A stretch of 43,041 nt of DNA from an uncultured Ruminococcus sp. (GTDB lineage: Bacteria; Bacillota; Clostridia; Oscillospirales; Acutalibacteraceae). The stretch is taken from positions 1 through 43,041 of the forward strand of contig CACXBF010000018.1 in the NCBI GenBank assembly GCA_902765855.1, in the 5' to 3' direction. The position numbers were made by a program, and so were the translations under genes. The notes beneath the pieces are model-generated. The model saw only the letters and a list, made by a program, of their open reading frames with translations, was not told the origin of the DNA and searched no databases. This document shows, piece after piece, positions 2,527-42,639 of the stretch; within the stretch, counting starts at the first letter, position 1, and each line of letters starts with the position of its first letter.

Positions 2527-2750
2527 TAATAACATTTTTTTCCGTAAAAATCAAGTCTTTTTCTCGTATGCAAGTAATTTATGTGTAAATTTAGGCAAAA
2601 TAAACAAAATAAATTTTCAGATAATTTAGATTTCTAATGTCAAAAAACACTCTTTCTTCATATAGAGTTTGCAGGTACTTTCAAATTATGATAAAATGAA
2701 TTAAAACTAAGTATAATATATAAGATAATATATTTTTAGGAGTGAGTTCA

Positions 2751-3824
2751 TTGAGCAAAAAGCGTATTGCCGTAATATTCGGCGGTGCTTCATCAGAGCA
2801 TGAGGTATCAAGACTTTCTTCAGCTTACATCATAAACAACATAGACAAAGAAAAGTTTGATGTTGTTACAATAGGTATCACAAAAGACGGTCGCTGGTTC
2901 TTAACAACCGCACCAACAGCTAAAATTGCAAACGGCGAATGGGAAAATGACACAAACAACAAGAGAGCTTTTATCTCCCCTGCTCCAACAATAGGCGGTC
3001 TTGTTGTGCTTGACGACGCAGGTCACAGCGAAATTGTCAAGCTTGATGTTGTATTCCCTGTTCTTCACGGCAAAAACGGTGAGGACGGTACTGTTCAAGG
3101 TCTTCTTGAGCTTAGCAAGATTCCATATGTCGGTTGTGGTGTAGCTGCATCTGCTTGCTGTATGGATAAAGTTTTTACAAACATTATGCTTCGTGACAGC
3201 GGAATTGATGAGGCTGATTTCACTTGGTTCTATACATATGAATATAAGCGTTCACCTGAGAAATGTATTGAACAGGTTGAAAATGCTCTTGCATATCCTA
3301 TCTTTGTTAAACCGGCGAATGCAGGCTCATCTGTCGGCGTAAATAAAGCTAAAAATCGTGAACAGCTTATCACTGCTATTGAAATAGCTATAAAAGAGGA
3401 TAGCAAAATTCTTTTTGAGGAAAATATTGTCGGTAAAGAAGTTGAATGTGCTGTATTTGGTAATGAGGATATTTTCGCTTCAATCCCCGGTGAAATCGCA
3501 CCTGCAAAGGAATTTTACGACTATGAAGCGAAATATCAAAGTGCAAGCAGTGAACTTTATATTCCTGCAAAAATCGGTGATGAGCTTATTGAAAAGGTAA
3601 GAGAAACTGCTAAAAAGGCTTATCATCTCTTTGGCTGTGCCGGACTTACAAGAGTTGATTTCTTCGTAACAGAAAATGGCAGAGTTCTTCTTAACGAGCT
3701 TAACACACTCCCTGGCTTTACTTCAATTAGTATGTATCCTAAGCTTATGGCTAATTGTGGAAAAGAAGGCAAACAACTTATCGCTGGACTTATCGACCTC
3801 GCTTTAAATAAAAATAAAGCTTAA
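2751..3824 (+). CDS. ddl: D-alanine--D-alanine ligase
   Basis: This is an ATP-grasp ligase joining two D-Ala for peptidoglycan precursors in the cytoplasm. The N-terminal IFGGASSEHEVS, the VFPVLHGKNGEDGTVQGLL substrate loop, the ATP-binding FVKPANAGSSVGV and the C-terminal metal-site segment LLNELNTLPGFT are all present. The omega-loop FYDYEAKY keeps the Tyr typical of D-Ala-D-Ala ligases; VanA-type D-Lac ligases carry a different residue. I place the start at TTG 2751, eight bases after AGGAG (2738-2742). A GTG at 2742 would overlap that ribosome site. The protein is 357 residues, normal for the family. A multi-hairpin repeat starts five bases after the stop. Confidence 0.95.
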   Translation: MSKKRIAVIFGGASSEHEVSRLSSAYIINNIDKEKFDVVTIGITKDGRWFLTTAPTAKIANGEWENDTNNKRAFISPAPTIGGLVVLDDAGHSEIVKLDVVFPVLHGKNGEDGTVQGLLELSKIPYVGCGVAASACCMDKVFTNIMLRDSGIDEADFTWFYTYEYKRSPEKCIEQVENALAYPIFVKPANAGSSVGVNKAKNREQLITAIEIAIKEDSKILFEENIVGKEVECAVFGNEDIFASIPGEIAPAKEFYDYEAKYQSASSELYIPAKIGDELIEKVRETAKKAYHLFGCAGLTRVDFFVTENGRVLLNELNTLPGFTSISMYPKLMANCGKEGKQLIAGLIDLALNKNKA

Positions 3825-3828
3825 AATT

Positions 3829-3987
3829 AAAAGTTTCGCTCAAGGCTTTTCAAAGGCTTGTAGGACAAGGGCAATGCCCTTGTCGACGTCCGCAGACGGC
3901 GAAATTCTTTATGCTTTCTAAAGCACAGGAGGGTAGAAAAACATTCCAATGGAATGTTTTTCGTAGGGAACCCTCGCAGGGGGCCCT
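3829..3987 (+). repeat. Multi-hairpin intergenic element, copy A
   Basis: The element begins AAAAGTTTCGCTCAAG five bases after the ddl stop. It contains successive palindromes: a degenerate CAAGGCTTTT/CAAAGGCTTG, GACAAGGGC/GCCCTTGTC (3864-3884), CGTC/GACG (3887-3898), TGCTTT/AAAGCA (3912-3925), then ACAGGAGGGT, AAAAACATTCC/GGAATGTTTTT (3937-3961) and AGGGAACCC/GGGGCCCT (3965-3987). The same modules in the same order recur near 11.2, 14.0, 35.7 and 37.4 kb. No U-tract terminator and no coding frame is visible. The rest of the 344-bp gap to murI has only the small palindrome at 4074-4090. Confidence 0.85.
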
Positions 3988-4073
3988 GATGAAGTGCCTC
4001 CATTCGTAAGTTGCATAATTGCTAGATATTCTAAATTGACTTGTGCTTATGCAAAGGAAGTAGCTATCGAGCA

Positions 4074-4168: not shown

Positions 4169-4999
4169 ATGAATAAACAGGCAATCGGTGTTTTCGATTC
4201 AGGTCTTGGCGGTCTTACTGCTGTAAGAGAGCTTCTGTCTGTATTACCAAACGAAAATATAGTTTATTTTGGCGATACAGGTCGTGTTCCTTATGGTAAC
4301 AGAAGCCGAGAAACCATCAAAAAATATTCTATGCAGGACGCTACATTTTTGCTTACTAAAAATGTTAAGCTAATCATCGCCGCTTGTGGCACAGCAAGCT
4401 CTGTTGCGCCTGAAATCGGCGATAATCTTTCTGTACCATTTACAGGCGTTGTTGCTCCTACTGCCGCTGCGGCTGTTCGTGCAACTAAAAATGGTAAAAT
4501 TGGCGTTATTGGTACAACGGCAACTATAAAAACCGGCTCTTATAAAAGAGAAATTAAAAAAATCAATCCTAATATAGAGGTATATGAACAGGATTGTCCA
4601 CTTTTTGTACCGCTTGTTGAAAACGGCTTTATATCGGCTGATGACCAAGTGGTAACTCTTGTAGTTGAAAGATACCTTTCTTCTCTAAGAGAGGCAGGTA
4701 TTGATACTCTTATTCTCGGTTGTACGCACTATCCTATAATAGCTGAGGCAATATCTAAGGCTTTGCCTAATGTAAGACTCATAGACTCCGGCAGAGAAAC
4801 TGCTATATATGCGGCTTCATTATTAAAGGAAAACAACTCACTTTCTGAGGATAATATTAAGGGTGAATGTGAATTTTATGTCAGCGACACAACAGAAGGT
4901 TTCTCCACTCTCGCAGGAATTTTCCTCGGCAGAGATATTTCCGGACAGGTAAGCCACATTGACATAGAAGATGTTGCGAAAAAATTTAAATTGGGATAA
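4169..4999 (+). CDS. murI: Glutamate racemase
   Basis: The enzyme interconverts L- and D-glutamate and supplies D-Glu to the peptidoglycan stem peptide. The 276 residues carry the family landmarks: VFDSGLGGLTAVREL, FGDTGRVPYG, the first catalytic Cys73 in IIAACGTASS and the second Cys185 in LILGCTHYP. The first Cys motif reads CGTAS rather than the textbook CNTA. It lies in line with ddl, 344 bp upstream, so two wall-precursor enzymes are neighbours. The ribosome site before ATG 4169 (GATGGGAAAATATAA) is weak. Confidence 0.93.
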   Translation: MNKQAIGVFDSGLGGLTAVRELLSVLPNENIVYFGDTGRVPYGNRSRETIKKYSMQDATFLLTKNVKLIIAACGTASSVAPEIGDNLSVPFTGVVAPTAAAAVRATKNGKIGVIGTTATIKTGSYKREIKKINPNIEVYEQDCPLFVPLVENGFISADDQVVTLVVERYLSSLREAGIDTLILGCTHYPIIAEAISKALPNVRLIDSGRETAIYAASLLKENNSLSEDNIKGECEFYVSDTTEGFSTLAGIFLGRDISGQVSHIDIEDVAKKFKLG

Positions 5000-11120: not shown

Positions 11121-11216
11121 GTTAGGAGATTTTATAAGAAAATATGGGATAAACTGTTTATTCATAATAGCGTTAAAAACTACCAATTCTAAGCTTTAAA
11201 CAAGCTTTATCTTTCA

Positions 11217-11395
11217 GGTTCCCTTACGATAGTTCTCTACGAAAAATATTCCCTCGGAATGTTTTTCTACCCTCCTGTGCTTAGAAAAGTATAAAGTATT
11301 TCGTTCTCTGCGGAGAGAGACAAGAGCGTTGCTCTTGATCTACGAGCCTTTGAAAAGACTCAAACGAAACTTATAAGTGTCTTAGAGAAATTTAT
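11217..11395 (-). repeat. Multi-hairpin intergenic element, copy B
   Basis: Read on the minus strand it starts right at the TGA of the 11396-12256 gene. It runs through CTAAGACACTTATAAGTTTC, GAGTCTTTTCAAAGGCTC, CAAGAGC/GCTCTTG, TCTCTCCGCAGAGA, GAAATACTTTATACT, CACAGGAGGGT and AAAAACATTCC/GGAATATTTTT. It is more diverged than the copy at 13933-14131 but keeps every module. Confidence 0.8.
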
Positions 11396-12256
11396 TCACT
11401 TATCAGCAGTTTCTTCGACTTTATCTATGGAATCACAGCTTGCTTTAGTTAGAGTCTGATTATTCTTAGATGAAATTGTTCTTCCTCCATTAGTCGGAAT
11501 CCGTTCAAGCCATTTCATTTTGCCAAGAGTATACAAGGCGCTGAGAAAATATGTATCTGAAAGCTCCTTTGGCTTTATATCCTCAAGGCACACGGGAAGT
11601 CTTATGCTAAAATTATCGTGTACTATTCCGCATACAGGTACTTTAGGCCTGCTACCTGTAAAAATTGTCATTGTACTGCCACAGGAAATCGGCATTGTAA
11701 TAGTCTGCGGCGCAACAAGAATATCGCAAGGTATTACATCATAGAAATTACTATGCACGAAAATAGTCGCTCCATACTCTCGCATAAAGCGTTCATTTTC
11801 GGCCTCATAAAATCTTACTGCACTTGTTGCAACTTGAAGTGAATTCGTATACTTTATGAATCTTTCTGCGGCAAAGCTAAATCTACCGCTTGGGTCAAAG
11901 AGTGAGATTCTCAATTCATTAGGGTCACAATTAAGGCTCTTAATATAGCCTTCTGCCGCATTTATACACAGTCTGCGGATATACATAGGATTATCAAAAC
12001 GCTTAAAACCAAGCTTTCTCGGCAAACTCAAGCTACTTGAACATACTGTTTCGTGAAAATCAGCATTAACCGACCTCTTGATTTTTCCGAATCTTATTCT
12101 GCCACTTTTCTGAACATATGTAATATGAATCATTTCCAAACCAAGATAGGCATCGTTTATTTTTTTTACATTTATTTCATACGGGGAAAATAATGCACGA
12201 AACCTCTCTTTTAAGCTATTAGGCTGTTCGTGCTTAATCGTTAATGCTGTTATCAT
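11396..12256 (-). CDS. Uncharacterised protein
   Basis: I do not recognise this 286-residue protein. It has no signal peptide or membrane helix. It shows a central segment with Rossmann-like spacing (SLQVATSAVRFYEAENERFMREYGATIFV, then IPCDILVAPQ), a Cys/Gly-rich turn PISCGSTMTIFTGSRP, and a low-complexity Ser/Thr/Lys C-terminus after about residue 255. The Rossmann resemblance is only an impression. The start ATG at 12256 has no classical Shine-Dalgarno. The nearest purine run, GGGGG, lies inside the arm of the terminator hairpin of the upstream MATE gene. It is probably expressed with the MATE gene by read-through or with its own weak start. Confidence 0.7.
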   Translation of the reverse strand: MITALTIKHEQPNSLKERFRALFSPYEINVKKINDAYLGLEMIHITYVQKSGRIRFGKIKRSVNADFHETVCSSSLSLPRKLGFKRFDNPMYIRRLCINAAEGYIKSLNCDPNELRISLFDPSGRFSFAAERFIKYTNSLQVATSAVRFYEAENERFMREYGATIFVHSNFYDVIPCDILVAPQTITMPISCGSTMTIFTGSRPKVPVCGIVHDNFSIRLPVCLEDIKPKELSDTYFLSALYTLGKMKWLERIPTNGGRTISSKNNQTLTKASCDSIDKVEETADK

Positions 12257-13658: not shown

Positions 13659-13732
13659 AGAGAACCTCCTAACTTTAGTATATGGTAATTTTCTTACTCA
13701 CGCTTAAATTATCAAACTTCCTCAAGAAACTC

Positions 13733-13932
13733 AAAAGTTTCGCTTGAGCCCTTTTAAAGGCTCACAGAGTCGAGGGACAGAGTCCCTCGTGGGTTAGCCC
13801 CTTAACATTCTTTGCCCCTGAGCGGCGAATTTTATCCGACGCTTTTTCTATCGTTAGCAATAAGCTAACGAGTTATATGTAGGGGCAAACTTTGTTTACC
13901 CCTTCGGCAGATAAATTTGTAGAGGTATCCAC
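13733..13932 (+). repeat. Multi-hairpin element, copy C-left (subtype 2)
   Basis: It starts AAAAGTTTCGCTTGAG and has hairpins GAGCC/GGCTC (13745-13762), CGAGGGAC/GTCCCTCG (13771-13789), CGTTAGC/GCTAACG (13852-13870) and GGGGCAAAC/GTTTACCCC (about 13882-13903). Its second module (GAGGGAC..GTCCCTC) is shared with D-left at 35.5 kb but not with copies A, B and E. It faces copy C-right. It is the one copy without a co-directional gene just upstream. Confidence 0.75.
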
Positions 13933-14131
13933 AGGGAACCCCCTGCGAGGGTTCCCTACGAAAAACATTCCACTGGAATGTTTTTCTACCCTCCTGCGCT
14001 TTGTGGAGCATAAAGTATTTCGCTCTCTGCGGAGAGCGACAAGGGCGTTGCCCTTGACCTACAAGCCTTTAAAAAGGCTTGAGCGAAACTTCTAAGTGTC
14101 TTAGGGGAAATTTATCAGCTAATTGGTAGTT
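13933..14131 (-). repeat. Multi-hairpin element, copy C-right (best-preserved copy)
   Basis: Read on the minus strand it starts about 55 bp after the stop of the ABC gene with CTACCAATTAGCTGATAAAT and CTAAGACACTT. It then shows five near-perfect hairpins: AAGCCTTT/AAAGGCTT (14080-14063), CAAGGGC/GCCCTTG (14056-14040), CGCTCTC/GAGAGCG (14038-14021), AAAAACATTCC/GGAATGTTTTT (13985-13961) and AGGGAACCC/GGGTTCCCT (13957-13933). The conserved GAAATACTTTATGCTCC and GCGCAGGAGGGT lie between hairpins three and four. Confidence 0.9.
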
Positions 14132-19804: not shown

Positions 19805-20284
19805 TTAATCCGCTGTAATTTCAGCAGTTTTTGCATCAATAAGCTCAATTAAATCCTTTGGTGCAAGTTCTATTTGATAACCTATTTTTCCTGCACTTAC
19901 GATTATTGTTTCTATATTTTCAGAAGATTTATCAAAAACTGTTGTAAACTGCTTTTTCATTCCGATAGGCGAACAGCCCCCTCTGATATATCCAGTAACC
20001 TTATTTATATCCTTAACATGAATCATTTCAACATGCTTTTCCCCGACAGATTTTGCTGCCTTTTTTAAATCAAGTTCTTTTAATACAGGAACTACAAAAA
20101 CATAATAATCTCTGCCTGCACCCTTTGTAACCAATGTTTTGAAAACCTGTTCCGGATTTTGTCCCATCTTCTTGGCAACAGCCGCACCATCAATAGCTCC
20201 ATCACTATGGTCATATGTATGTGCTTTATATGTAATCTTTGCTTTATCAAGAATACGCATAACATTTGTCTTAAATTCTGACAT
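19805..20284 (-). CDS. ybaK: YbaK/EbsC-type Cys-tRNA(Pro) deacylase
   Basis: This 159-residue protein spans the whole YbaK/ProX editing domain: HTYDHSDGAIDGAAVAKKMG, QVFKTLVTKGAGRDYYVFVVPV with the conserved catalytic-pocket Lys, DLKKAAKSVGEKHVEM, and the signature GYIRGGCSPIGMKK. The family hydrolyses cysteine mischarged onto tRNA-Pro. AAAGGA precedes ATG 20284, and a good promoter lies at 20324-20352. The ribosome site sits inside the left copy of a 26-bp direct repeat. Confidence 0.92.
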   Translation of the reverse strand: MSEFKTNVMRILDKAKITYKAHTYDHSDGAIDGAAVAKKMGQNPEQVFKTLVTKGAGRDYYVFVVPVLKELDLKKAAKSVGEKHVEMIHVKDINKVTGYIRGGCSPIGMKKQFTTVFDKSSENIETIIVSAGKIGYQIELAPKDLIELIDAKTAEITAD

Positions 20285-20286
20285 AC

Positions 20287-20312
20287 TATTTCAATCCTTT
20301 CAGCTTTAATTA
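20287..20312. repeat. 26-bp direct repeat, left copy
   Basis: An exact 26-bp sequence containing CAATCCTTTCAGCTTTAATT recurs at 21916-21941 in the same orientation. On the minus strand this copy holds the Shine-Dalgarno of ybaK. The pair brackets the BspA-like gene and the ybaK promoter. Confidence 0.9.
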
Positions 20313-20463: not shown

Positions 20464-21891
20464 ATGAAAAAATCAATTAAGATTATAATGCTTATATTAA
20501 CATCGACATTAGCAATAAGTTATATGACAGCTTGTAAAAATTCTGAAGAAACCTTATCAAAACCTACTGATTCCATTGAAACCAATTCGTCTAATAGCAC
20601 ATTAAGCATAGATGAAAGCAAGTCCTCTTCAGAACCTATAAGTTATCAAAAAGATGATATATCTATTGATTTATCAAAATTAATTGCAAACGGTGAATGT
20701 GGTAAAAATAATGATAATATAAGTTGGTCATTAGATAATAATGGTACGCTTTTAATTTCTGGAAGCGGAGAAATGGAAGATTGTATATCTCTAAATAAAT
20801 TAGCTTGGTATTCATATAAGGATAAAATTAAAAAAGTCAAAATTGAATATGGTGTTACAAGTATTGGAACAGGTGCATTCTCTGATTGTAAAAATTTACA
20901 TAGCATAAGTATTCCAGATAGTATTACTGAAATCAATGGTTTGGCGTTTTATAATTGTACAGAATTAGTAAATATAAATCTTCCAGATGGTATATCAAAA
21001 ATACAAACATCTACATTTGAGACTTGTTCTAAATTAAAAAGTATAAATATTCCTGATAGTGTTACAAGCATTAAAGAATCAACTTTTGCCAATTGCCTAT
21101 CCTTAAAAAATATAAATATTTCAGATAATGTTGAAAATATTGAAAATGGTGCGTTCTACAACTGCAAAAGCTTAAAAGAAATAAATGTTAATCCAAATAA
21201 CAAAGACTATTTATCCGAAAATGGTATGTTATTTGATATAAACAAGACAAGTATTATTTGTTGCCCTGCCGGCAAAACAGGCAATTATACTATTCCAGAC
21301 AGTGTTAAATATATTGAAGATTATTCTTTTTATGGCTGTAATTTAAGCAATATAGAAATTCCAAAAACAGTTTCAAATATTAAAAGTTATGCTTTTGCTT
21401 TCTGTGAGAAATTAAAGGATATAAAAATCTCTGATAACATTAACAGCATTGGAGAATTTGCATTTTTTAAATGTGGCCTTTTAAAAAATATAACAATTCC
21501 AAGCAAGAATGTAAAAATTTATGATGATACATTTTATGGCTGTGATAGTTTGGAAGAAATTAACATTTCTCCAGATAATAAATACTATACATCAAGTGAC
21601 GGTGTATTATTTAATAAAAATAAAACCGAACTTATCTGTTGTCCTATGGGGAAAACTGGTGATTATATTATTCCGAATACTGCAAAAATCATTAAATCTC
21701 CGGGATTTAATTGCTGCAAAAAGCTAACAAGTATAACTATTCCAAATAGTGTTGACCAAATTAACGATGATGCATTTGGTTTCTTAATAGATACGCAAAC
21801 TATATATATTCAAGATAAAAGTGAACCAGCCGAAAAATGGGAAAATAGCTGGGATTTTCGCAGTGAAGCCAAAGTAGTTTGGAACGCATAA
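20464..21891 (+). CDS. BspA-like leucine-rich-repeat lipoprotein
   Basis: The 475 residues start at ATG 20464 (GGAG upstream). A signal peptide ends in a lipobox-like MTAC, so it is probably lipid-anchored at Cys. A Ser/Thr/Glu-rich spacer follows. From about residue 115 come about ten LRR_5/BspA repeats of the form IPDSVTSI..STFANC..L..I.I, interrupted twice by a SxNGMLFDxNKTxxICCPAGKTG insert. Such proteins bind host or microbial surface ligands. Codons are markedly more A/T-rich (AAT, AAA, ATA) than in neighbouring ybaK and folT. It lies between 26-bp direct repeats, which suggests insertion. Confidence 0.88.
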   Translation: MKKSIKIIMLILTSTLAISYMTACKNSEETLSKPTDSIETNSSNSTLSIDESKSSSEPISYQKDDISIDLSKLIANGECGKNNDNISWSLDNNGTLLISGSGEMEDCISLNKLAWYSYKDKIKKVKIEYGVTSIGTGAFSDCKNLHSISIPDSITEINGLAFYNCTELVNINLPDGISKIQTSTFETCSKLKSINIPDSVTSIKESTFANCLSLKNINISDNVENIENGAFYNCKSLKEINVNPNNKDYLSENGMLFDINKTSIICCPAGKTGNYTIPDSVKYIEDYSFYGCNLSNIEIPKTVSNIKSYAFAFCEKLKDIKISDNINSIGEFAFFKCGLLKNITIPSKNVKIYDDTFYGCDSLEEINISPDNKYYTSSDGVLFNKNKTELICCPMGKTGDYIIPNTAKIIKSPGFNCCKKLTSITIPNSVDQINDDAFGFLIDTQTIYIQDKSEPAEKWENSWDFRSEAKVVWNA

Positions 21892-21915
21892 AATTTGTTT
21901 TAAATTCCACTATAT

Positions 21916-21941
21916 TATTTCAATCCTTTCAGCTTTAATTA
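21916..21941. repeat. 26-bp direct repeat, right copy
   Basis: Identical over 26 bp to 20287-20312. It lies between the stop of the BspA-like gene and the terminator of the folT-type gene, where it has no evident translational role. Confidence 0.9.
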
Positions 21942-22614: not shown

Positions 22615-22682
22615 AAAAAAACCTCCTTATTTTTACAGAATCGCTGTAATGAAATAAGAAGATTACTTCTTTACATTATCAA

Positions 22683-22778
22683 ACAGCGGGATGCAGACTG
22701 CGTACCGCAAGAAATTCTTTTCGTTCATACGACAACTCCCCGTTCGTATGACACTTAACGCACACAATCTTACTCTGT
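22683..22778 (-). promoter_or_regulatory. Tetrahydrofolate (THF) riboswitch
   Basis: The minus-strand leader carries the core of the folT-type THF aptamer: GCGTTAAGTGT, a stem CATACGA/TCGTATG closing GAACGGGGAGTTG-type loop sequence, ACGAAAAGAA, and TTGCGGTACGC leading to TGCATCCCGCT. The outer stem can pair ACAG (22778-22775) with CTGT (22686-22683). Downstream lie AAGAAG/CTTCTT and TTACAG/CTGTAA hairpins just before AAGGAGG. The last CTGTAA could instead pair with the 5' TTACAG of the aptamer, suggesting control of translation. The consensus match is by memory, not covariance search. Confidence 0.85.
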
Positions 22779-22785
22779 AACTAAT

Positions 22786-22973: not shown

Positions 22974-24068
22974 ATGACTAAAATTGATATTTTTTCCGGC
23001 TTTCTCGGTGCAGGCAAAACTACACTTATCAAAAAGCTTATCGAAGAAGCCTTTAAGGGCGAAAAGCTCGTTTTAATTGAGAATGAGTTCGGCGAAATCG
23101 GCATTGACGGCGGTTTCCTCAAGGAGGCTGGTGTTCAGATTAACGAAATGAATTCCGGCTGTATCTGCTGTTCTCTTGTAGGTGACTTTGAAAAGGCTCT
23201 CGGCAAGGTTCTTGAGGATTATGCTCCTGACAGAATCATCATTGAGCCATCAGGCGTTGGTAAGCTTTCAGATGTTATTAAGGCTGTTCAGGCTGTTGTA
23301 ACAGATAAGGTTTGCCTTAACGGCTTCGTTACAGTTGCAGACGCTACAAAGTGCAAAATGTATATTAAGAATTTCGGTGAGTTCTATCTTAATCAAATCG
23401 AATATGCAAGCACTATCGTTCTCAGTAGAACTCAGAATCTTTCACAAGAAAAACTTGATGCCGCTCTCGCTCTTATCCGTGAGCATAATAGCAAAGCAAG
23501 AATTGTTACAACTCCATGGAGCGAAATTTCCGGTGAAAACATTCTTACAGCAATCGAGGGTGACAACTCCTTTACAGAGGACCTCCTCAAAGAAGCTGAA
23601 GTTTGCCCAACCTGCGGACATCATCACCATGACGGTGAACATTGCGACCATGACCACGACGAACATGAACACGAGCATTGCCACCACGACCACGATGAGC
23701 ATGACCACGAGCATTGCCACCACGACCACGATGAGCATGACCACGACCATTGCCACCACGACCATGACGGACATCACCATCATCACCATGCTGATGAAGT
23801 ATTCACAAGTTGGGGCAAGGAAACCGCAAAGCACTTTACAAAGGAAGAAATTGAAAAGATTCTCTCTGCTTTGAATGATACTGAAAAGTATGGTTTCATA
23901 CTTCGTGCAAAGGGCATTGTTGCAGGCGAAAACGGCGAATGGATTCACTTCGATTTCGTTCCTGAGGAATCAAATGTAAGAAACGGTTCTGCTGACTATA
24001 CAGGCAGACTTTGCGTTATCGGTTCTAAGCTTAATGAGGCCGCTCTTGCTGAGCTTTTCGATTGCTAA
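22974..24068 (+). CDS. G3E-family (COG0523/CobW) GTPase with a His-rich metal-binding insert
   Basis: This 364-residue protein has Walker A GFLGAGKTT (9-17), a switch region ENEFGEIGIDGGFL, and the metal-binding GCICC motif (62-66) that defines COG0523. A Walker B-like IIEPSGVGK follows. Residues about 215-270 form a His/Asp/Glu/Cys-rich tandem repeat, then the CobW C-terminal domain (KYGFILRAKGIV...WIHFDFVPE). The family delivers metal, in several cases Zn, to client proteins. The guanine-specificity motif reads SRTQ rather than NKxD. It is the first gene of a three-gene operon. Confidence 0.88.
   Translation: MTKIDIFSGFLGAGKTTLIKKLIEEAFKGEKLVLIENEFGEIGIDGGFLKEAGVQINEMNSGCICCSLVGDFEKALGKVLEDYAPDRIIIEPSGVGKLSDVIKAVQAVVTDKVCLNGFVTVADATKCKMYIKNFGEFYLNQIEYASTIVLSRTQNLSQEKLDAALALIREHNSKARIVTTPWSEISGENILTAIEGDNSFTEDLLKEAEVCPTCGHHHHDGEHCDHDHDEHEHEHCHHDHDEHDHEHCHHDHDEHDHDHCHHDHDGHHHHHHADEVFTSWGKETAKHFTKEEIEKILSALNDTEKYGFILRAKGIVAGENGEWIHFDFVPEESNVRNGSADYTGRLCVIGSKLNEAALAELFDC
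23660..23770 (+). repeat. 36-bp coding tandem repeat of the His-rich insert
   Basis: About three 36-bp units code for EHDHEHCHHDHD with small changes (EHEHEHCHHDHD, EHDHEHCHHDHD, EHDHDHCHHDHD). Each unit brings one Cys and about six His. The insert as a whole begins with CGHHHHDG and ends in a His6 run, HHHHHH. Confidence 0.85.
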
Positions 24069-30668: not shown

Positions 30669-33212
30669 ATGAAGCGTTTTACGGCTATTTTAGCAGCACT
30701 TTTGGCGGCCTCGTGCGTATTTTCTTCTGCCGTAATGGCTATTCCTGGTGAAACCGACCCGCAAACAGGCTATAATCAGTATGTACAAGAGCATATCAAA
30801 TATGACGCGATGGGCTATGCTTATATTGATGATGAAAACGGCACAAGAATATATTATGACCTTAATTCTTACGGATATTTTGTTCCTATAAATAATCCAT
30901 ATGACGAACCAAGCCAAGAACCAAGTTCTGAGCCAAGTGTTGAAGAATCAAGTCAGGAACCAAGCTCTGAACCAAGCGTTGAGGAACCAAGTAAAGAGCC
31001 AAGCTCTGAACCAAGCGTTGAGGAATCGAGTAAAGAGCCAAGCTCTGAATCAAGCGTTGAGGAATCGAGCAAAGAGCCAAGCTCTGAATCAAGCGTTGAG
31101 GAATCGAGCAAGGAAACAAGCAAACAAGAAAGCTCGAAAGAAACCTCTAAAAGAGGAGATAAAAGCGAAATTCCACTAATCAACTATAAAATTGACGCAC
31201 TTAAAATGAATATTGCTTTGCCAAATGACGTTTATGCTATTTTGAGAAGTGGAGAACAGAACGAAAAAGTTCTTGAAATTTTTAAGATGACGGCAGAAGA
31301 AGCTGTTGCCTCTCTTAAAAAATCTAATATGTACCTCAAAGCATCTCCGGAAGACTTTGCTTATGATATAACAGTAACTATGACGCAAGATGAGGATAGT
31401 AAAACAATAAATAATTTCACAGAGCTTTCTGACAAAGATTTAATTGAAATTACAAATTCTCTTACAAAGCAAAAAGAATATGCCTCTTGCACACAGAAAA
31501 AATATGGTGATGTTCTTTACCTAAGCTTGAACTATCATTCAACAGAAGACGGCGATGATATTGCCGGTATTCAGAATTACACTGTTGTAAATGGACAGAA
31601 AATTACAATTACACTTCAAACTCGTGCAAAGGACCTAAGCAATCAACAAAAGGAAATTCTTGAAGCTGTTATGAAGAGCGTTTCATTTACAGATATTAAG
31701 CCACCTGTTAAGGCAGAAACAAATGAAGATGAAATCAAAAATATGATGATTCTCATTTATACTACCGCAGGTGTATGTATAATTCTTTTCATTGTTTTAA
31801 TTTCAGTACTTATAAGCCGCTCTCGTAAGAAAAAGAAACTCTTAGCTGAAATTGAAAATAACAATGAAACAAAATCAAAACCTGAAGAACAAAAGGCCGA
31901 AACAAAAAATAAATCTGAAGATAAACCAAAGAAAAAAGATGAAAAAAAGCAAAAATCTAAAAAACAAGATAAGAAAAAGGATTCTAAGAAATCTGATAAA
32001 CCTAAAAAAGAAGTAACATCTACAAAATCTAAGATCGAAGAAAAAGCAGAGCCAAAAACAAATGACAAAAAGACTGAGGAAAAAATAGAAGAAAAAACTA
32101 TTCCAGAAGAAAAATCTGTTTCAGCAGAAAGTGATTACAAGTCTGAAGATTTTTCATTATTTGACACACAGCCAACAATAGAAAAAATCGAGATTTATAA
32201 TTCACAGAATGAACAGTCTAAGGTTAATCCAAACCTTCCGAAAGCGCCTAAATATAATCCTCCGGGAACATTAGATTATATAACAACAGGTGTTTCTAAA
32301 ACTCCTGAACAGGCCGGCATTCAGATTACAACTGAAACCTTTACAGTTCCAAATAATAAAAATAATATTCAACCGATTGAGGAAGAAAATACTGAAACTG
32401 CTACAGTTGTTGAGGATAAGAAGTCTGATACTGTTGAACCTACTCCAGCTGTTGAGGATAAGAAGTCTGATACCATTGAGCCTGCTCCGGTTATTGAGGA
32501 TAATAAGCCTGATACTGTTGAGCCTGCTCCGGTTATCGAGGATAATAAGCCTGAATTTGCTGAGCATGAGGCTCACGAAACTAAGGATAAAGCCTTAAAG
32601 AGTTTTCTTGGAAAAATAAAAAAGGCTGTTATTCCTGAAATTGATGAAGATGCTTTCGAGCATGAAATCACAGCAAACGCAAGCACTGAATCTATCAACA
32701 ATATTCCAAAGCCAGTTATTGCACCTACAAAACCTATAGAAAAGTCACAAACTACTCCACCTGTGGAACCTACTAAAAAAGTTCCGTCTGCTCCTAAAAC
32801 AGAGCCTAAAACAGAAAGCGATATATCTTCAAGATATGAAAAACTTTTCGGTAAAAACAGTTCGTCATCTGAAGATACTGAAAGCTTTGATAAAACAGAA
32901 TCTCGCTTTGAAAAGCTATTCGGCGTTAAAAACTCAACAAAAAATGATGAAAATTCCAATGATACACATACTAATGCCAATAGCAATGATTCAAAAGAGG
33001 AGAGCATTGTCTTTGAAAAACCTATTCAGAATGATGAAGAAAATATCCACAACAGACCACCTCAAATCACAATTCCTTCTCTAAAAACTGATAAGGAAAC
33101 AGAATCCCGCTTTGAAAAACTTTTCGGAAAAAATGACCCTGAAAGCCTTTCACATTCACAAACTAAGGCACAGCAAACCACAGATGAAATTAATAATTCC
33201 GAGAAGAAATAA
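30669..33212 (+). CDS. Single-pass membrane protein with a long disordered cytoplasmic tail
   Basis: The 847 residues start at ATG 30669, eight bases after GGAGG. A signal peptide (ending near VMAIPG) is followed by a 13-residue tandem linker (EPSSEPSVEESSK type, five units). The extracytoplasmic domain (residues about 180-355) resembles the PsbP/Mog1/DcrB fold in layout (MNIALPNDVYAI...LKKSNMYL...TLQTRAKDLSNQQ). A membrane helix (about 365-387) is followed by about 460 residues rich in Lys, Glu, Pro and Ser. The tail carries VEDKKSDTVEP-type repeats and three copies of SR(F/Y)EKLFG. I do not recognise the whole. It is probably a surface-to-cytoplasm link. Confidence 0.8.
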   Translation: MKRFTAILAALLAASCVFSSAVMAIPGETDPQTGYNQYVQEHIKYDAMGYAYIDDENGTRIYYDLNSYGYFVPINNPYDEPSQEPSSEPSVEESSQEPSSEPSVEEPSKEPSSEPSVEESSKEPSSESSVEESSKEPSSESSVEESSKETSKQESSKETSKRGDKSEIPLINYKIDALKMNIALPNDVYAILRSGEQNEKVLEIFKMTAEEAVASLKKSNMYLKASPEDFAYDITVTMTQDEDSKTINNFTELSDKDLIEITNSLTKQKEYASCTQKKYGDVLYLSLNYHSTEDGDDIAGIQNYTVVNGQKITITLQTRAKDLSNQQKEILEAVMKSVSFTDIKPPVKAETNEDEIKNMMILIYTTAGVCIILFIVLISVLISRSRKKKKLLAEIENNNETKSKPEEQKAETKNKSEDKPKKKDEKKQKSKKQDKKKDSKKSDKPKKEVTSTKSKIEEKAEPKTNDKKTEEKIEEKTIPEEKSVSAESDYKSEDFSLFDTQPTIEKIEIYNSQNEQSKVNPNLPKAPKYNPPGTLDYITTGVSKTPEQAGIQITTETFTVPNNKNNIQPIEEENTETATVVEDKKSDTVEPTPAVEDKKSDTIEPAPVIEDNKPDTVEPAPVIEDNKPEFAEHEAHETKDKALKSFLGKIKKAVIPEIDEDAFEHEITANASTESINNIPKPVIAPTKPIEKSQTTPPVEPTKKVPSAPKTEPKTESDISSRYEKLFGKNSSSSEDTESFDKTESRFEKLFGVKNSTKNDENSNDTHTNANSNDSKEESIVFEKPIQNDEENIHNRPPQITIPSLKTDKETESRFEKLFGKNDPESLSHSQTKAQQTTDEINNSEKK

Positions 33213-35487: not shown

Positions 35488-35511
35488 TAATCTAACATAG
35501 GTTCTAAAACT

Positions 35512-35610
35512 AAAAGTTTTGCTCAAGCTTTTGAAAAAGCTTGCAGGGTCGAGGGACGGAGTCCCTTGTAGGTTTTAAGGGCAAAGCCCTTAACATTTCT
35601 TTGTTTCCAA
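35512..35610 (+). repeat. Multi-hairpin element, copy D-left (subtype 2)
   Basis: It starts 25 bp after the pyrF stop with AAAAGTTTTGCTCAAG. Hairpins are CAAGCTTTT/AAAAAGCTTG, GAGGGAC/GTCCCTT and AAGGGC/GCCCTT, then AACATTTCTTTG. It matches C-left and runs into the pyrF terminator. Confidence 0.75.
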
Positions 35611-35640
35611 AGCGGTGGACTAAGTCCACCGCTTTTATTT
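35611..35640 (+). terminator. Terminator of pyrC-pyrF
   Basis: AGCGGTGGAC / GTCCACCGCT (10 bp, 3-nt loop) followed by TTTATTTT. Confidence 0.9.
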
Positions 35641-35664
35641 TCTATTATCAGCAATATTAGTTAA

Positions 35665-35820
35665 ATATGGAACCCTCCTGCGATTTGTGGAGCATAAAGT
35701 ATTTCGCTGTCTGCGAACGGCGACAAGGGCGTTGCCCTTGTCCTATGAGCCTTTTTAAAGGCTCAAGCGAAACTTTTAAGCGTCTTAGGGAAGTTTATCA
35801 GCTAATCGGTAGAGCCGAAC
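35665..35820 (-). repeat. Multi-hairpin element, copy D-right (subtype 1)
   Basis: On the minus strand: CTACCGATTAGCTGATAAAC, CTAAGACGCTTAAAAGTTTC, GAGCCTTT/AAAGGCTC, GACAAGGGC/GCCCTTGTC, a degenerate CGCCGTTCGCAGACAGCG, GAAATACTTTATGCTCC, then CGCAGGAGGGTTCC. It lacks the AAAAACATTCC module. It lies beyond the cysK terminator. Confidence 0.85.
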
Positions 35821-35930: not shown

Positions 35931-35980
35931 GCCGCCTTGAGCGAAACTTTTATTTGTCTTAGGGAAGTTTATTAACTAAA
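35931..35980 (-). repeat. Extra partial element end, copy D3
   Basis: A third occurrence of the conserved end, CTAAGACAAATAAAAGTTTC then GCTCAAG, on the minus strand is followed by a different hairpin, GGCGGC/GCCGCC (about 35921-35935). The stretch 35821-35930 between the two minus-strand copies carries no gene; a hairpin AGCCGAA/TTCGGCT is at about 35812-35836. Confidence 0.65.
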
Positions 35981-37234: not shown

Positions 37235-37352
37235 TCATTTAATATGAGTTTGATAATAGCTTTTAGTTCATAATTACTTTGAAAAAAATTGAACGAAACT
37301 TATCGCAGGTAGTCATCTGATACAATTTCGTGTCTTAAAAGCAAAGGCACTC

Positions 37353-37489
37353 CAGTAGGGAACCCTCCTGCGCTTTGTGAAGTATAAAGGCACTCTATGC
37401 GGAGAGCCACCAAAGGCAGAGCCTTTGAAAACTGCGAGCCTTTAAAAAGGCTCGAGCGAAACTTTTAATTGTCTTAGAGAATTTTTCAG
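37353..37489 (-). repeat. Multi-hairpin element, copy E
   Basis: On the minus strand it begins at the base after the stop codon of the signalling gene: CTGAAAAATTCTCTAAGACA, ATTAAAAGTTTCGCTCGAG, GAGCCTTT/AAAGGCTC, AAAGGC/GCCTTT, GGCTCTCCGCATAGAGTGCC, CTTTATACTTCACAAAGC, GCAGGAGGGTTCCCTAC. It lacks the AAAAACATTCC module. A terminator follows 120 bp later. Confidence 0.8.
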
Positions 37490-40400
37490 TTATTCTTTCT
37501 CATCATTACAAAGCTCTTGATTATAGAATAACCAGCTATTCTTTCCCTTATGCTTTATGGAGAAAAGTGCTATCTTAGAATTACTATAAAGTTCATCAAA
37601 ATTAACTCCATCATGAGGATAAATCGAAATTCCGACACTTCCTGAAACTGAAATAAGATTATCTCCCGATTCAAAATCCTGTCTTAGAATATTACAAATA
37701 CTTTCGGCTCTTTTAGGAAGAATATCGTTATTTTCAAGATTCTTGATAAATATAACAAATTGGTCTCTACCCACTCTGCCAATAAGGTCATATTCTCTGA
37801 AAAGTTTTTTAAGTCTTTCTGTTATATCCTTAAGAACTGTATCAGCAAAAATCTGTCCCATTTGGTCATAAACATTTTTGAAGTTATCTATATCAACAAT
37901 CATAAATGCGTGTATGCCTCTTTCGCCATCAATAGTCTGCAAAAATTCATTTATTTCATATTTAAGATTATCTTTATTGAGTAGCTGAGTAAGAAAATCG
38001 TACTTTAGCATATTTTTAATATTTTGATGTTCACGCCTTTCATCGTCAATATCAGCTTCAAAACCAATGACAGAATCAGGCATACCCTGTTCATTAAGAA
38101 TAGATGTGAATCTTAGCTTGCTCCAACGATAATTATCACCTATTGATTTTTTTATAATTCTTACAAAGCACTCCGCATCATGATAACCGGCTTTTACAGC
38201 AAGAAGCTTCTCAACATATTTGCATTTATCCTCCGGATGAATAAATTCGCAGTTTTTAATATAATCTATTAAATTTTCTGTTGGCGGTTCTACTCCATAA
38301 ATTTCCTTAAATGAATCTGAAAACCACACCATATCATTATTAAGTTGCCAGCGAAACAAAACAAATTTCATATCTTTGAAAATTTCACTATACATATTAT
38401 TTGTAAATGCAAGCTCATATTTTTGATGACAGAGCATAGGAGCTTTTGGCATAGTTTTAGTCAGCTTCATTTCCATTCGAAAAGCGTCTGTATTCAATAG
38501 CTTAGAGCTATAATATATAAATCTGTTTCCACTAAATTTTCGTAAAGTTTCTATCTCAGTAGAAGTAAGATTGTGTGGAAGTATAATAGAAACACCACTT
38601 GATATAAAATAGTCAAAAATAAATTTAAGCAATTTATTCGGGTAATGACCGTCAACAATACTATTGATAAAGCCTAAAGAAAAAGTTACTGAATCAAAAA
38701 GCTTTTCGGTGAAACACTTAATATTTATATATTCAAGACCAAAGCCGAAAAGACCAAGTTTAAAGCCAAACGAATGAATTGCAGATGAAAAATTGACAAG
38801 CTCTCTATAGCTCATAGTATTCAGCATATCCTGAGTTATATTTATTGTAATGCATGTGCAATCGAATGGATATTCTGAAACAAGATTGGTAATCATCTTC
38901 AAGACAATAGGTGCGTCTATACCTTTGAACATAGTATAGATTGAAATTTCCGGTAGAATATCACATTCCTTTTGAAGTTCATAAAGCCCCATCATAAGTC
39001 TTTTAAGACTATTTAATCCAAGAGCCGTTATATTATCCGAAACTGTTACCATCTCGCAAAGTTCGGCAAATGTATATGGAATATCTGTGCTTGGAAGTTC
39101 CATATAATCGTAAAAAACTATTGACTCTGTTTCAGAATCTATCGCAGGACAAAATACTCTCTTAAAATCATAAATATTGACACGCTCTTCATTAGAAACA
39201 AGTGCAAATGATGGATTTTCCTCAAAAGATTTACGCATCTCTTTATTATAGAAAAGATACATATCCTTGCCACGCAGCTTGGACATTTCTGTTGCGAAAT
39301 CTGCATTATTCATAAGTTCAGTAAAACTTGTTCCATCAGCAGGATATTGTGCAACGCCTATGCTTACTGAAACATTTTGCTTTGTAAGCAAATAATCGAA
39401 TGACATATGCATTGAATTATATAGCTCTTCAACCGAGTTTAAAACTTCCTTTATATCAAAACAATCACGCAAAAAAACTACAAAACTATCTGAACCAATT
39501 CTTGAAACCAATGAATTGGTCTTAAAATGTTCCTTTAGCTTTTCGGCAATTTTACAGAGAACCTCATCTCCAAATGTAGTGTTTGTAGCAAAATTAAGAG
39601 CCTTAAAGTCATCTATATCAATGCTTATCAATACATGCATACCATCCTTGCCGGAATGCATAAGATAATCATCAACAGCTTTTCGCAGATAATTTACATT
39701 CCAAAGTCCTGTAAGATTATCATGTTGGTCATTATAACGGTCATCTCCGTTTTCTGCATTTTTCTCGCTGATTTTAGACGCACAGCAATATAACTTTCTC
39801 AGTTTGCCGTCCTCACAAAAAGGAATCACTATACAGCGATACCAACGATATGAATTTTTATCTTGTATAAATCTTCCGTCAAATTCAAGCTTTTCTTTAC
39901 CTCTTTCAACAGCTCTTTGCACATTACTAAGGCGGAATGTTTTATTAAAGGCAACTACATCATCCGGGTGACATGAAGATGACATCATCGTTACAGCTTC
40001 GGTATAGTTTTTAGGATAATAATTATACATTTTATCCCAATCGCCCTTACGGACATAAAAGTTATCGTGCTTTAAATCACATTCGAACACAAGGTCATTA
40101 ATTCTATAAAAAATCTGGCAATCTCTTTCATGCGTTTCTCTTGCTACCTGTTTTTGACGCTCTAAAGCTCCAATAAGCTCTTCTCTGCCCATATTGGCAT
40201 AAATGCTCATAGCTGTATCACTAAAATTTTTTTTAAGCATTTTATCTGCCGCATTTAGCGAACCTTCTGTCTGCCGCTCTTTGTCTATATGAGCCTTATC
40301 AGCATATATCTTTGCAAGTTCTTCAAATTGCGGAAGCACAAGATTAAAACACTCCATAAGTTTTTCTGAGAATGCACCACAAGCACCAGATTTAATCATC

Positions 40401-41392
40401 TCTGCTGCCTGTTTATGCGGTATTCCTGCCTTATATGGTCTATCGCTGGTCAAAGCATCATAGCAATCCGCAACAGAAACAACTTGTGCACAAATTGGAA
40501 TATCATCACCTCTCAAGCCGTCAGGATAACCCATTCCGTCCCATTTCTCATGGTGATAACGGCAAATCTCATAACAATATTGAAAATATTCGTTTTTTTC
40601 CTGCAAATCAAGAAGATTTAAGATTTCACAACCCTTTGTTGTATGTTCTTTCATTATGCGAAATTCGTCATATGTAAGCCGTCTTGGTGCAAGAAGTATA
40701 GAATCCGGAATAGCGATTTTACCTATATCGTGTATTGACGAAGCAGAAACTATCAGGTTGATTTTGCTTTCTGTAAGATTATATTCAGGACATTTTTCGG
40801 CAACAACACGCAAAAGGATTTCTGTGAATTTGCGTATTCTATGAACATGCTTTCCACTTTCGACATCACGATACTCAATAACAGTACTAAGGGTATCAAG
40901 CATAGTATTATTCATATTGTTAATAGTATCCTGCTGTCGCTGTATTCTATCATTTTGCTGCATGAGATAAGTTGCCTGTTTTTTCAGAAGTTGTTCAAGC
41001 TTATTTTTTTGTTCATAAAGTTCAACCAAATTATCAATTCGCCTTAATACAGCATGAGGGTCAAATGGTTTTTCAATAATATCACAGGCACCATATTCGT
41101 GTTCATTGAGTATGGCTTCATCATTAAATTCTGCACTCATAAGTACAGTAGGAATAACATTAGTTATTCCAAAATCTTTTAGTTTTCTAAGTGCCTCTAT
41201 ACCGTCTTTATTTGGCATAATAATATCAAGCAAAATAACAGCAATCTTATCCATATTTTGCTCAGCAAGAGCAACTGCATCGTAAGCATTATCAGCCTCT
41301 AAAATTTTATACTTATCTTTCAAGAGTTCTGAAAGAATAGCTCTATTCATCTCTATATCATCAACAATCAAAATAGTATCACGAATTGCCAT
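37490..41392 (-). CDS. Receiver-HD-GYP protein with degenerate GGDEF and EAL modules
   Basis: The 1300 residues hold, in order: a receiver domain (phospho-Asp56, Lys108); a coiled linker; an HD-GYP domain with intact HD at 221-222, paired His (HH 280-281) and GYP 288-290; a PAS-like domain (about 430-560); a GGDEF-type domain with RIGSDSF in place of GGDEF (about 565-730); an EAL-like domain lacking the EAL motif (about 750-985); a second PAS-like domain (about 1010-1140); and a second GGDEF-type domain with RVGRDQF. HD-GYP enzymes hydrolyse c-di-GMP. The cyclase and EAL modules look catalytically dead and may bind nucleotide. It lies 12 bp after a pseudo-HPt gene, with which it is surely cotranscribed. 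Confidence 0.85.
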   Translation of the reverse strand: MAIRDTILIVDDIEMNRAILSELLKDKYKILEADNAYDAVALAEQNMDKIAVILLDIIMPNKDGIEALRKLKDFGITNVIPTVLMSAEFNDEAILNEHEYGACDIIEKPFDPHAVLRRIDNLVELYEQKNKLEQLLKKQATYLMQQNDRIQRQQDTINNMNNTMLDTLSTVIEYRDVESGKHVHRIRKFTEILLRVVAEKCPEYNLTESKINLIVSASSIHDIGKIAIPDSILLAPRRLTYDEFRIMKEHTTKGCEILNLLDLQEKNEYFQYCYEICRYHHEKWDGMGYPDGLRGDDIPICAQVVSVADCYDALTSDRPYKAGIPHKQAAEMIKSGACGAFSEKLMECFNLVLPQFEELAKIYADKAHIDKERQTEGSLNAADKMLKKNFSDTAMSIYANMGREELIGALERQKQVARETHERDCQIFYRINDLVFECDLKHDNFYVRKGDWDKMYNYYPKNYTEAVTMMSSSCHPDDVVAFNKTFRLSNVQRAVERGKEKLEFDGRFIQDKNSYRWYRCIVIPFCEDGKLRKLYCCASKISEKNAENGDDRYNDQHDNLTGLWNVNYLRKAVDDYLMHSGKDGMHVLISIDIDDFKALNFATNTTFGDEVLCKIAEKLKEHFKTNSLVSRIGSDSFVVFLRDCFDIKEVLNSVEELYNSMHMSFDYLLTKQNVSVSIGVAQYPADGTSFTELMNNADFATEMSKLRGKDMYLFYNKEMRKSFEENPSFALVSNEERVNIYDFKRVFCPAIDSETESIVFYDYMELPSTDIPYTFAELCEMVTVSDNITALGLNSLKRLMMGLYELQKECDILPEISIYTMFKGIDAPIVLKMITNLVSEYPFDCTCITINITQDMLNTMSYRELVNFSSAIHSFGFKLGLFGFGLEYINIKCFTEKLFDSVTFSLGFINSIVDGHYPNKLLKFIFDYFISSGVSIILPHNLTSTEIETLRKFSGNRFIYYSSKLLNTDAFRMEMKLTKTMPKAPMLCHQKYELAFTNNMYSEIFKDMKFVLFRWQLNNDMVWFSDSFKEIYGVEPPTENLIDYIKNCEFIHPEDKCKYVEKLLAVKAGYHDAECFVRIIKKSIGDNYRWSKLRFTSILNEQGMPDSVIGFEADIDDERREHQNIKNMLKYDFLTQLLNKDNLKYEINEFLQTIDGERGIHAFMIVDIDNFKNVYDQMGQIFADTVLKDITERLKKLFREYDLIGRVGRDQFVIFIKNLENNDILPKRAESICNILRQDFESGDNLISVSGSVGISIYPHDGVNFDELYSNSKIALFSIKHKGKNSWLFYNQELCNDEKE

Positions 41393-41937: not shown

Positions 41938-42639
41938 TTAGTCCTTAGAAGAAGCCTTCTTTGTCATAACAACAGCTGTGCCAAGGGAAGCAGCAACTAC
42001 AGCAAGGAGAACCCATGCAGCAGATGAATCGCCTGTACCAACTGTCTTGTCGTCTGAAGATTCAGCCTTAGAAGACTCTTCAGCCTTTGAAGACTCTTCA
42101 GCCTTTGAAGATTCTTCTTCAGCCTTTGAAGACTCTTCAGCCTTTGAAGACTCTTCTGTCTTATAGTCAGTAGCTGTTACGAGAACATTTGTGTTACCGT
42201 TGCCATCTTCTGCACCTTCACCAGTAGCCTTGTAAAGCTTACCCCACTCGATAGCTGGGTTCTTAACTGTCTTAGTAGCATCTGACTTAGCAATTGTCTC
42301 GCCACCGTCGATGTTCTGTGTCTGAACGCCGTTATCACCGTTGTTGAAGATGATACCTGTTGGAAGGTTATCAGCTGTCCATGTGTAAGAGTAGATATTA
42401 CCCTCAACATGAGTAGCTGCAGCACCTGGCCAATCACCGTTTACATTGCCTGCGTCATTCCAAGCATGAACTGTAACTGTGCTACCCCATGAATCAAGCT
42501 CCATCTTTGCAAGAGTATCATCATCTGGAATCTCGAAGTAAATTGTGTAGTCGTCTGCTGCAGATGTGCTACCTGCACCAACAACAAACATAGAAGCTAC
42601 AAGAGCTGCTGCGAAAATGACACTAAGAATCTTTTTCAT
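41938..42639 (-). CDS. Membrane-anchored CBM26-like starch-binding protein
   Basis: The 233 residues comprise a signal peptide (MKKILSVIFAAALVASMFVV, cleavage near STSA-AD) and one starch-binding module. The module has YTIYFEIPDDD, VTVHAWNDAGNVNG-WPG, IYSYTWTADNLPTGIIFNNGDNGVQTQNID, the CBM26 pattern of exposed Trp and Asn. An EESSKAEE-type linker follows, then a C-terminal helix (AAWVLLAVVAASLGTAVVM) with a basic tail. Just before the helix lies VGTGDSS, which lacks the Pro of LPXTG, so sortase attachment is doubtful and membrane anchoring likely. It has no enzyme domain, so its role is probably to hold starch or maltodextrin at the cell. Confidence 0.85.
   Translation of the reverse strand: MKKILSVIFAAALVASMFVVGAGSTSAADDYTIYFEIPDDDTLAKMELDSWGSTVTVHAWNDAGNVNGDWPGAAATHVEGNIYSYTWTADNLPTGIIFNNGDNGVQTQNIDGGETIAKSDATKTVKNPAIEWGKLYKATGEGAEDGNGNTNVLVTATDYKTEESSKAEESSKAEEESSKAEESSKAEESSKAESSDDKTVGTGDSSAAWVLLAVVAASLGTAVVMTKKASSKD

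Follow-up and report, generated by a model that had tools for sequence, protein, structure and literature searches.

Is a multi-hairpin sequence that recurs between genes an RNA element at the 3' ends of transcripts, or a piece of mobile DNA? The question is raised by positions 13,933 to 14,131 of the window, by which we mean the whole 43,041-nt stretch of DNA analyzed here (contig 18 of a 2.39-Mb genome). A first-pass annotation had named both possibilities: a 3'-UTR RNA element, or a mobile palindromic unit that inserts at gene ends. Our reading, to which we assign a probability of about 0.7, is that the copies are mobile DNA, a family of small, non-autonomous repeats whose arms are kept paired mainly by template switching.

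Stretches of the window align at 84%–94% identity to Pseudoruminococcus massiliensis Marseille-P3876 (NZ_OLMR01000002.1, NZ_OLMR01000001.1; hereafter G001), and we therefore take the window to come from a congener of that species; the two genomes are also classified in one genus. The window's own genome is referred to as G000, and a further congener as G002.

Copies in the window and their anatomy

The window holds eight hairpin-rich repeat copies or part-copies. All eight had been listed by the first-pass annotation, and all were found again near their original coordinates and on the same strands:

3823-3984 (+), core multi-hairpin copy; 3826..4058 (+) including a variable tail
2742-3824 and 4169-4999, neighbors of 3826..4058 (+): D-Ala-D-Ala ligase gene and racemase gene (Pfam names)
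11221-11410 (-), copy; 11142..11421 (-) including the 5' arm module and tail
13697..13957 (+), inverted half-element with different inner hairpins (nhmmer hit, alignment); same site occupied in G001
13933..14131 (-), full core copy (13933-14130 as recovered; relatives within its own genome)
14094..14131 (-), 5' arm module, CTAAGAC end (alignment)
14062..14081 (-), hairpin S1 (CAAGCCTTT/AAAGGCTTG)
14040..14056 (-), hairpin S2 (CAAGGGC/GCCCTTG)
14020..14039 (-), hairpin S3 (TCGCTCTC/GAGAGCGA)
13960..13986 (-), hairpin S5 (GAAAAACATTCC/GGAATGTTTTTC)
13933..13957 (-), hairpin S6 (AGGGAACCC/GGGTTCCCT)
35491..35677 (+), in a convergent gap, forming the left half of an inverted pair
35671..35812 (-), the right-hand partner in that pair
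35935..35979 (-), outer partial copy (5' arm module)
37361-37494 (-), copy; 37240..37494 (-) with an inverted-repeat-type end at 37240-37256 (by reading), its other end lying at the stop of gene 37490-41392

The single module order and the paired arms that had been described are both correct. A full core runs AAAAGTTTCGC, S1, S2, S3, a linker (GCGCAGGAGGGT), S5, and S6. The core either follows the 5' arm module (CTAAGAC end) or, as many single copies do, begins abruptly at AATTAAAAGTTT. By reading, each of the three frames of the arm-module consensus contains stop codons. The tail 3' of S6 is variable and comes in about four types (by reading). Where a further copy had been placed at 13733-13932 there is indeed a repeat, although it is not a full copy but an inverted half-element whose inner hairpins differ. 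It sits tail to tail with 13933-14131, an arrangement common at many other sites: cores often have such an inverted half, with its different inner hairpins, as their partner, and there may be part-copies on the outer sides of the pair. Overall, the elements are hairpin arrays of about 160–450 bp; some are nested, others joined tail to tail, and module combinations vary among copies, as is also a feature of BOX elements. No ORF of 80 aa or more was found within the window copies.

The minus strand of 13933-14108 folds stably both as RNA (z = -7.1) and as DNA (z = -9.8), with none of 200 shuffles as good in either case. The plus strand of the same interval folds about as well as RNA (z = -6.7), and we count this likeness of the two strands against the 3'-UTR RNA reading.

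Other features of the window include a THF riboswitch at 22682-22779 (-), which scores 91 bits, and short tandem repeats (39-, 42-, and 18- to 21-bp units) inside long ORFs at 1485-1740, 30902-31160, 32351-32554, and 42043-42180. Repeats of 36 bp at 23623-23766, in ORF 22974-24068, are seemingly rich in His/Asp codons and perhaps encode a metal-binding segment. A 58-bp leader-like repeat occurs at 20255-20312 and 21884-21941 (88% identical, 1.6 kb apart).

Family size and distribution

In G000 the search found 80 matches, of which 40, the query copy among them, score at least 137 bits (40 of 188 first-look candidates were scored). The remainder are mostly short pieces, many of them hairpin S5 on the other strand. 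This copy number is far beyond chance, and copies at unrelated sites in the genome are 80%–96% alike. A profile search of the window plus 32 stretches returned 98 hits.

Beyond G000, the DNA query matched seven of 60 relatives (its own genome counted), and a 32-base pattern was found in at least 112 stretches of public genomes titled Ruminococcus, Anaerotignum, Angelakisella, Anaerotruncus, Oscillospiraceae, and others. The search of relatives with a covariance model, which had been proposed as a check, did extend the family: with strict filters and no more than 13 candidates per genome being scored, the model matched 46 of the order's 245 genomes (own included), in 32 of 127 genera. Occurrence across the order is patchy. 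No match to the query was found among plasmids, and the single matching phage record is MT836235.1 (1484-1575; 77% over 42% of the query). At the Rfam gathering score, the element was unmatched in the window and nine loci. A description of this repeat family was not found in the literature searched, although one may exist. The family comprises hairpin-rich intergenic DNA repeats in gut Clostridia that are apparently mobile.

Presence, absence, and orientation in congeners

Mobility was assessed by setting the copy clusters of G000 against one half of G001. An orthologous G001 interval is available for 23 of the 57 clusters (21 with a gap, two spanned). At seven of these 23 comparable sites the element is cleanly absent, with G001 carrying no more than 22 bp in its place (window 3826-4058 and 11142-11421, L016 near 2749, L020 near 4003, L021 near 4013, L025, and L039). 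An eighth site (window 37361) keeps an internally deleted remnant, and decayed remnants are present at several sites.

At 3826-4058 the three congeners form a series: 45 bp free of repeat in G002, a single small hairpin module in G001, and in G000 the same module together with the core. The element accreted here in steps. This is the one site at which absence is polarized by an outgroup, and deletion is possible at the other absence sites. The element at 11142-11421 has taken the place of a gene end: it supplies the last codons and the stop of gene 11396-12256. The encoded protein, for which there is no Pfam match, ends SIDKVEETADK, with the last eight residues derived from the arm module, and the G001 protein ends SIDIL.

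Could these differences be deletions from static, vertically inherited intergenic DNA that has gained its palindromes by template switching? Such an explanation would accommodate the decayed remnants and the copy at 13933-14131, which is 99% identical to the G001 copy at the same site. We nevertheless regard it as very improbable, given that G002 also lacks the 3826-4058 element, that copies at unrelated sites resemble one another so closely, and that some arrangements are nested.

At three sites (L026, L027, and L028) a core lies at the same place in both species in opposite orientation. When the 22 G001 cores are ranked by identity, the flipped partners rank 3, 1, and 1, and the partners in four same-orientation pairs rank 1, 1, 1, and 10 (the last, at L032, being 10 of 22). 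Judged by these ranks, the flips appear to be shared copies that were inverted. They could instead be independent insertions, as the ranks rest on small identity differences. Together, the presence/absence differences between congeners, the flips in place, and the patchy occurrence in the order support the mobile palindromic unit that had been proposed, and both high copy number and insertion polymorphism, as expected of MITEs, are found.

Several larger structures were also seen. A tandem array of ~94-bp units adjoins the core at L028 (about 3650-4000), and at G001 C12:352187-353151 a core and its partner are repeated in tandem with a period of about 420 bp. Window segment 30649-35515 (~4.9 kb) is inverted relative to G001; G001 has element pieces at each of the two breakpoints, and the window has them at the right-hand one.

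Stem pairing and loop inversion

To describe pairing within the genus, we used hits that reach the model end and have a AGGAGGGT-like linker (59, of which 58 are distinct), leaving out inverted half-elements. We assigned the stems by hand, working from the consensus; an RNAalifold consensus missed most hairpins and was unused. The 58 distinct cores contain 2,539 Watson-Crick, 102 G-T, 52 A-C, and 49 other cells. With the doubtful stem S4 set aside (it shows a T-G pair in 35 of 58 copies), the count is 60 G-T versus 47 A-C.

The cross-genus set has 46 pairs in 20 sequences, of which eight come from Pseudoruminococcus and 12 from eight other assemblies. Its alignment (A1) took 15 of 23 sequences plus five window or G000 copies; one masked sequence, three half-elements, two near-identical sequences, and two with extra hairpins were left out. 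Standard pairs make up 94.8% of the stem cells. Compensatory change, for which a test had been suggested, is real: change is two-sided in 22 of the 46 pairs (80 cells), a level that none of 500 shuffles reaches, and four of five covariation measures lie beyond all 500 shuffles (for the fifth, further pair types, 45 of 500 came up to the observed value). One S3 pair is C-G in 10 sequences and G-C in 10.

The paired arms had been taken to suggest selected RNA structure. RNA selected on one strand should favor G-U over A-C, and across genera there are 20 G-T cells (eight at one poorly aligned pair) versus 17 A-C. Despite the compensation, then, there is no G-U excess outside the doubtful S4, which argues against the RNA interpretation. 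It should be noted that the order of the hairpins, like the loops of S2 and S3, is conserved across genera, and this could reflect selection on one strand.

The loops offer a second view of how the stems change. With element orientation held fixed, reverse-complement loops occur in S5 (12-bp arms; TTT 3/AAA 2, GGT 4/ACC 1, AGT 32/ACT 2, and AAT 3/ATT 1, of which the AGT/ACT and AAT/ATT loops are each one substitution apart) and in slot C (10- to 12-bp arms in the copies read; TTT 9/AAA 4, TAT 2/ATA 1, and GAA 1/TTC 1). S1 loops (9-bp arms) are TC 31, TT 10, and GA 2, with TC and GA as a further reverse-complement pair. Within the genus, no loop inversion was found in S2 (45), S3 (45), or slots A and B (18 each). 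Across genera, S2 loops are GGC 3 and GCC 1, which are reverse complements yet one substitution apart, and no reverse-complement loop pair was found among 17 S5 loops. The hairpins that invert have arms of at least 9 bp, and those that do not have arms of 7–8 bp (by reading).

One study reports spacer inversions only for arms longer than 9 bp (PMC8604942), and another argues that template switching is able to maintain stems and fix arm pairing (PMC8794818). Loop inversion that is clear only in the longer-armed hairpins is as replication template switching predicts. During replication within the palindrome, one arm would be copied onto the other, sometimes with inversion of the loop. Arm pairing would then come mainly from this process rather than from selection on transcribed RNA. 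It is possible that the strand of the S2 and S3 loops is under selection.

Gene context and orientation

The first-pass annotation held that the element tracks gene 3' ends. Using simple ORF calls in the sampled half of G001, and counting any intergenic repeat with at least three other matches (the commonest 14-mers among these are modules of the hairpin family), we found 40 bp or more of repeat sequence in 100 of 552 intergenic regions. Repeats occupy 30% of convergent gaps (7,278/24,351 bp), 20% of tandem gaps (19,442/96,014 bp), and 9% of divergent gaps (3,256/36,603 bp). Convergent gaps are indeed the densest, but the gradient largely describes promoter avoidance. We suggest that the repeats insert between genes and survive best where promoters stay unbroken.

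Co-orientation with the nearest gene, the other part of that claim, is automatic in convergent gaps. Seven window copies could be classified by gap, and the four in tandem gaps are three co-oriented and one anti-oriented. Single copies in tandem gaps are 29:13 (co:anti) in G001 and 16:9 in G000, or 45:22 pooled (p 0.007, with some orthologs counted twice), so that co-orientation in Pseudoruminococcus is a weak bias. Replication strand was considered as its cause and rejected: when all tandem copies are counted, the bias follows the gene in both classes (35:23 and 15:10). The proposed co-oriented enrichment is not seen elsewhere, albeit on small numbers. The 108 matches in other organisms divide into 10 co-oriented, 12 anti-oriented, 16 convergent, six divergent, 59 at a contig edge, and five inside ORFs. 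Ten P. massiliensis loci gave one co-oriented and five anti-oriented matches, a handful that runs opposite to the 45:22 bias.

These counts bear on whether the element is a structured RNA that acts in cis at the 3' ends of genes (a 3'-UTR stabilizer, processing site, or terminator array) and has spread as a useful module. Consistent with such a role are the stable fold, the strong cross-genus covariation, the weak co-orientation (45:22, with its twice-counted orthologs), the proximity of copies in tandem clusters to the upstream stop rather than the next start (40 of 62 and 21 of 33), the uninverted S2 and S3 loops within the genus, and the T-G excess in S4. However, orientation is even in other organisms (10 versus 12), divergent gaps hold 21 copies (seven in one array), G-U excess is confined to S4, both strands fold alike, the element is unmatched in Rfam (gathering score; window and nine loci), cores lie in opposite orientation at shared sites, and only 46 of 245 genomes matched. 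With co-orientation weak and limited to the genus, and no G-U excess outside S4, we consider the 3'-UTR RNA element originally proposed to be quite unlikely.

Element ends and candidate enzymes

Inverted ends (TAATRTRAGTTTGAT, by reading) are clear in only a few copies, and many copies end in other modules. Direct repeats of 6–7 bp accompany four of five elements, with weak statistics (individual p 0.09, 0.03, 0.03, 0.03, and 0.96; Fisher combination about 0.003, by hand), in windows that were chosen after seeing the data. A pattern search for inverted-end pairs gave 33 convergent versus 20 in a divergent control, and many such pairs are therefore chance. A pattern search for larger, autonomous copies gave ten left ends and distant right-end patterns. 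We propose that copies are moved in trans by a putative transposase or recombinase that works on their ends, as the short inverted ends and 6- to 7-bp direct repeats of a few copies suggest.

Among the six enzyme families searched, none is common to G000 and G001. The Y1 transposase has three matches in G000 and none in G001, the IS4-type family is present only in G000 and the IS256-type only in G001, and DDE_3, IS1595, and reverse transcriptase are absent from both. Identity with REP/RAYT was rejected on the lack of a Y1 transposase in G001, which carries many copies, and no parent insertion sequence turned up, none of the six families being present in both genomes. Three pairs of multi-copy ORFs were found in half of G001. 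A Pfam scan of four proteins from two multi-copy ORF pairs revealed no transposase (one protein matched tRNA methyltransferase families and three matched nothing).

In REP/RAYT and attC-type systems, folded single-stranded DNA is the substrate that a dedicated recombinase recognizes. The hairpin array may likewise be a single-stranded DNA substrate, here of an undescribed recombination system whose enzyme lies outside the tested families. Selection would act on one DNA strand, with stems recognized by shape and the loops of S2 and S3 by strand, and cassette-like insertion, flipping, nesting, and swapping would be the outcome. Stems that pair without G-U preference, a hairpin order kept across genera, S2, S3, and slot A and B loops that are oriented within the genus, and tandem and nested units all fit this proposal. 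Nevertheless, copy-rich G001 has no Y1 and the families searched offer no other candidate enzyme, short arms alone can explain the missing loop inversion, and the single GCC among cross-genus S2 loops (versus three GGC) is a reverse complement, or one substitution. On balance, we think the proposal unlikely, and prefer non-autonomous repeats paired mainly by template switching.

Relation to known repeats and significance

The nearest described kind is that of BOX and MITE-like repeats, with the likeness to BOX drawn by description (PMC3049150). According to that text, BOX elements of Streptococcus pneumoniae are modular, intergenic, hairpin-forming, and over-represented between convergent genes; they can alter genes on insertion, and their mobilizer is uncertain (PMC3049150). 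The repeats described here share the modularity, intergenic position, hairpins, convergent-gap excess, and alteration of a gene by insertion, and no mobilizing enzyme was found for them among the families searched. They differ from BOX elements in host group and modules, in their tail-to-tail pairs, and in a fixed order of five to six hairpins that recurs in several genera. Bacterial MITEs, in the definition quoted in the same text (PMC3049150; reviewed in PMC10969869), are resembled in shortness, in the lack of an ORF of at least 80 aa in the window copies, in high copy number, and in some inverted ends and short direct repeats. The differences are that no parent insertion sequence was found among the families searched, many copies are without inverted ends, and the elements are strongly modular.

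Two other comparisons are less close. Structured 3'-UTR or cis-regulatory RNAs, as collected in Rfam, share the multi-hairpin fold with covariation, whereas these elements are unmatched in Rfam (gathering score; window and nine loci), show no strand preference in other organisms, and have no G-U excess outside S4. REP/BIME/REPIN sequences with RAYT are palindromic intergenic units, often paired. The present elements are likewise palindromic, intergenic, and often in pairs, but their units are longer and G001 has no Y1 transposase. We read the family, with its high copy number, presence and absence in congeners, accretion, opposite orientation at three sites, modular recombination, and stems paired across genera, as a new BOX/MITE-like repeat family.

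Repeats, which by their commonest 14-mers are mostly of this hairpin family, account for ~19% of sampled P. massiliensis intergenic DNA (29,976/156,968 bp), and, as gene 11396-12256 illustrates, a repeat of the family can rewrite a gene end. Were the single-stranded DNA substrate proposal true, these Clostridia would harbor an undescribed recombination system. The family would pass covariation tests for RNA structure, yet its pattern fits a mutational cause, and it is therefore a useful test case for telling RNA selection from palindrome-templated mutation.
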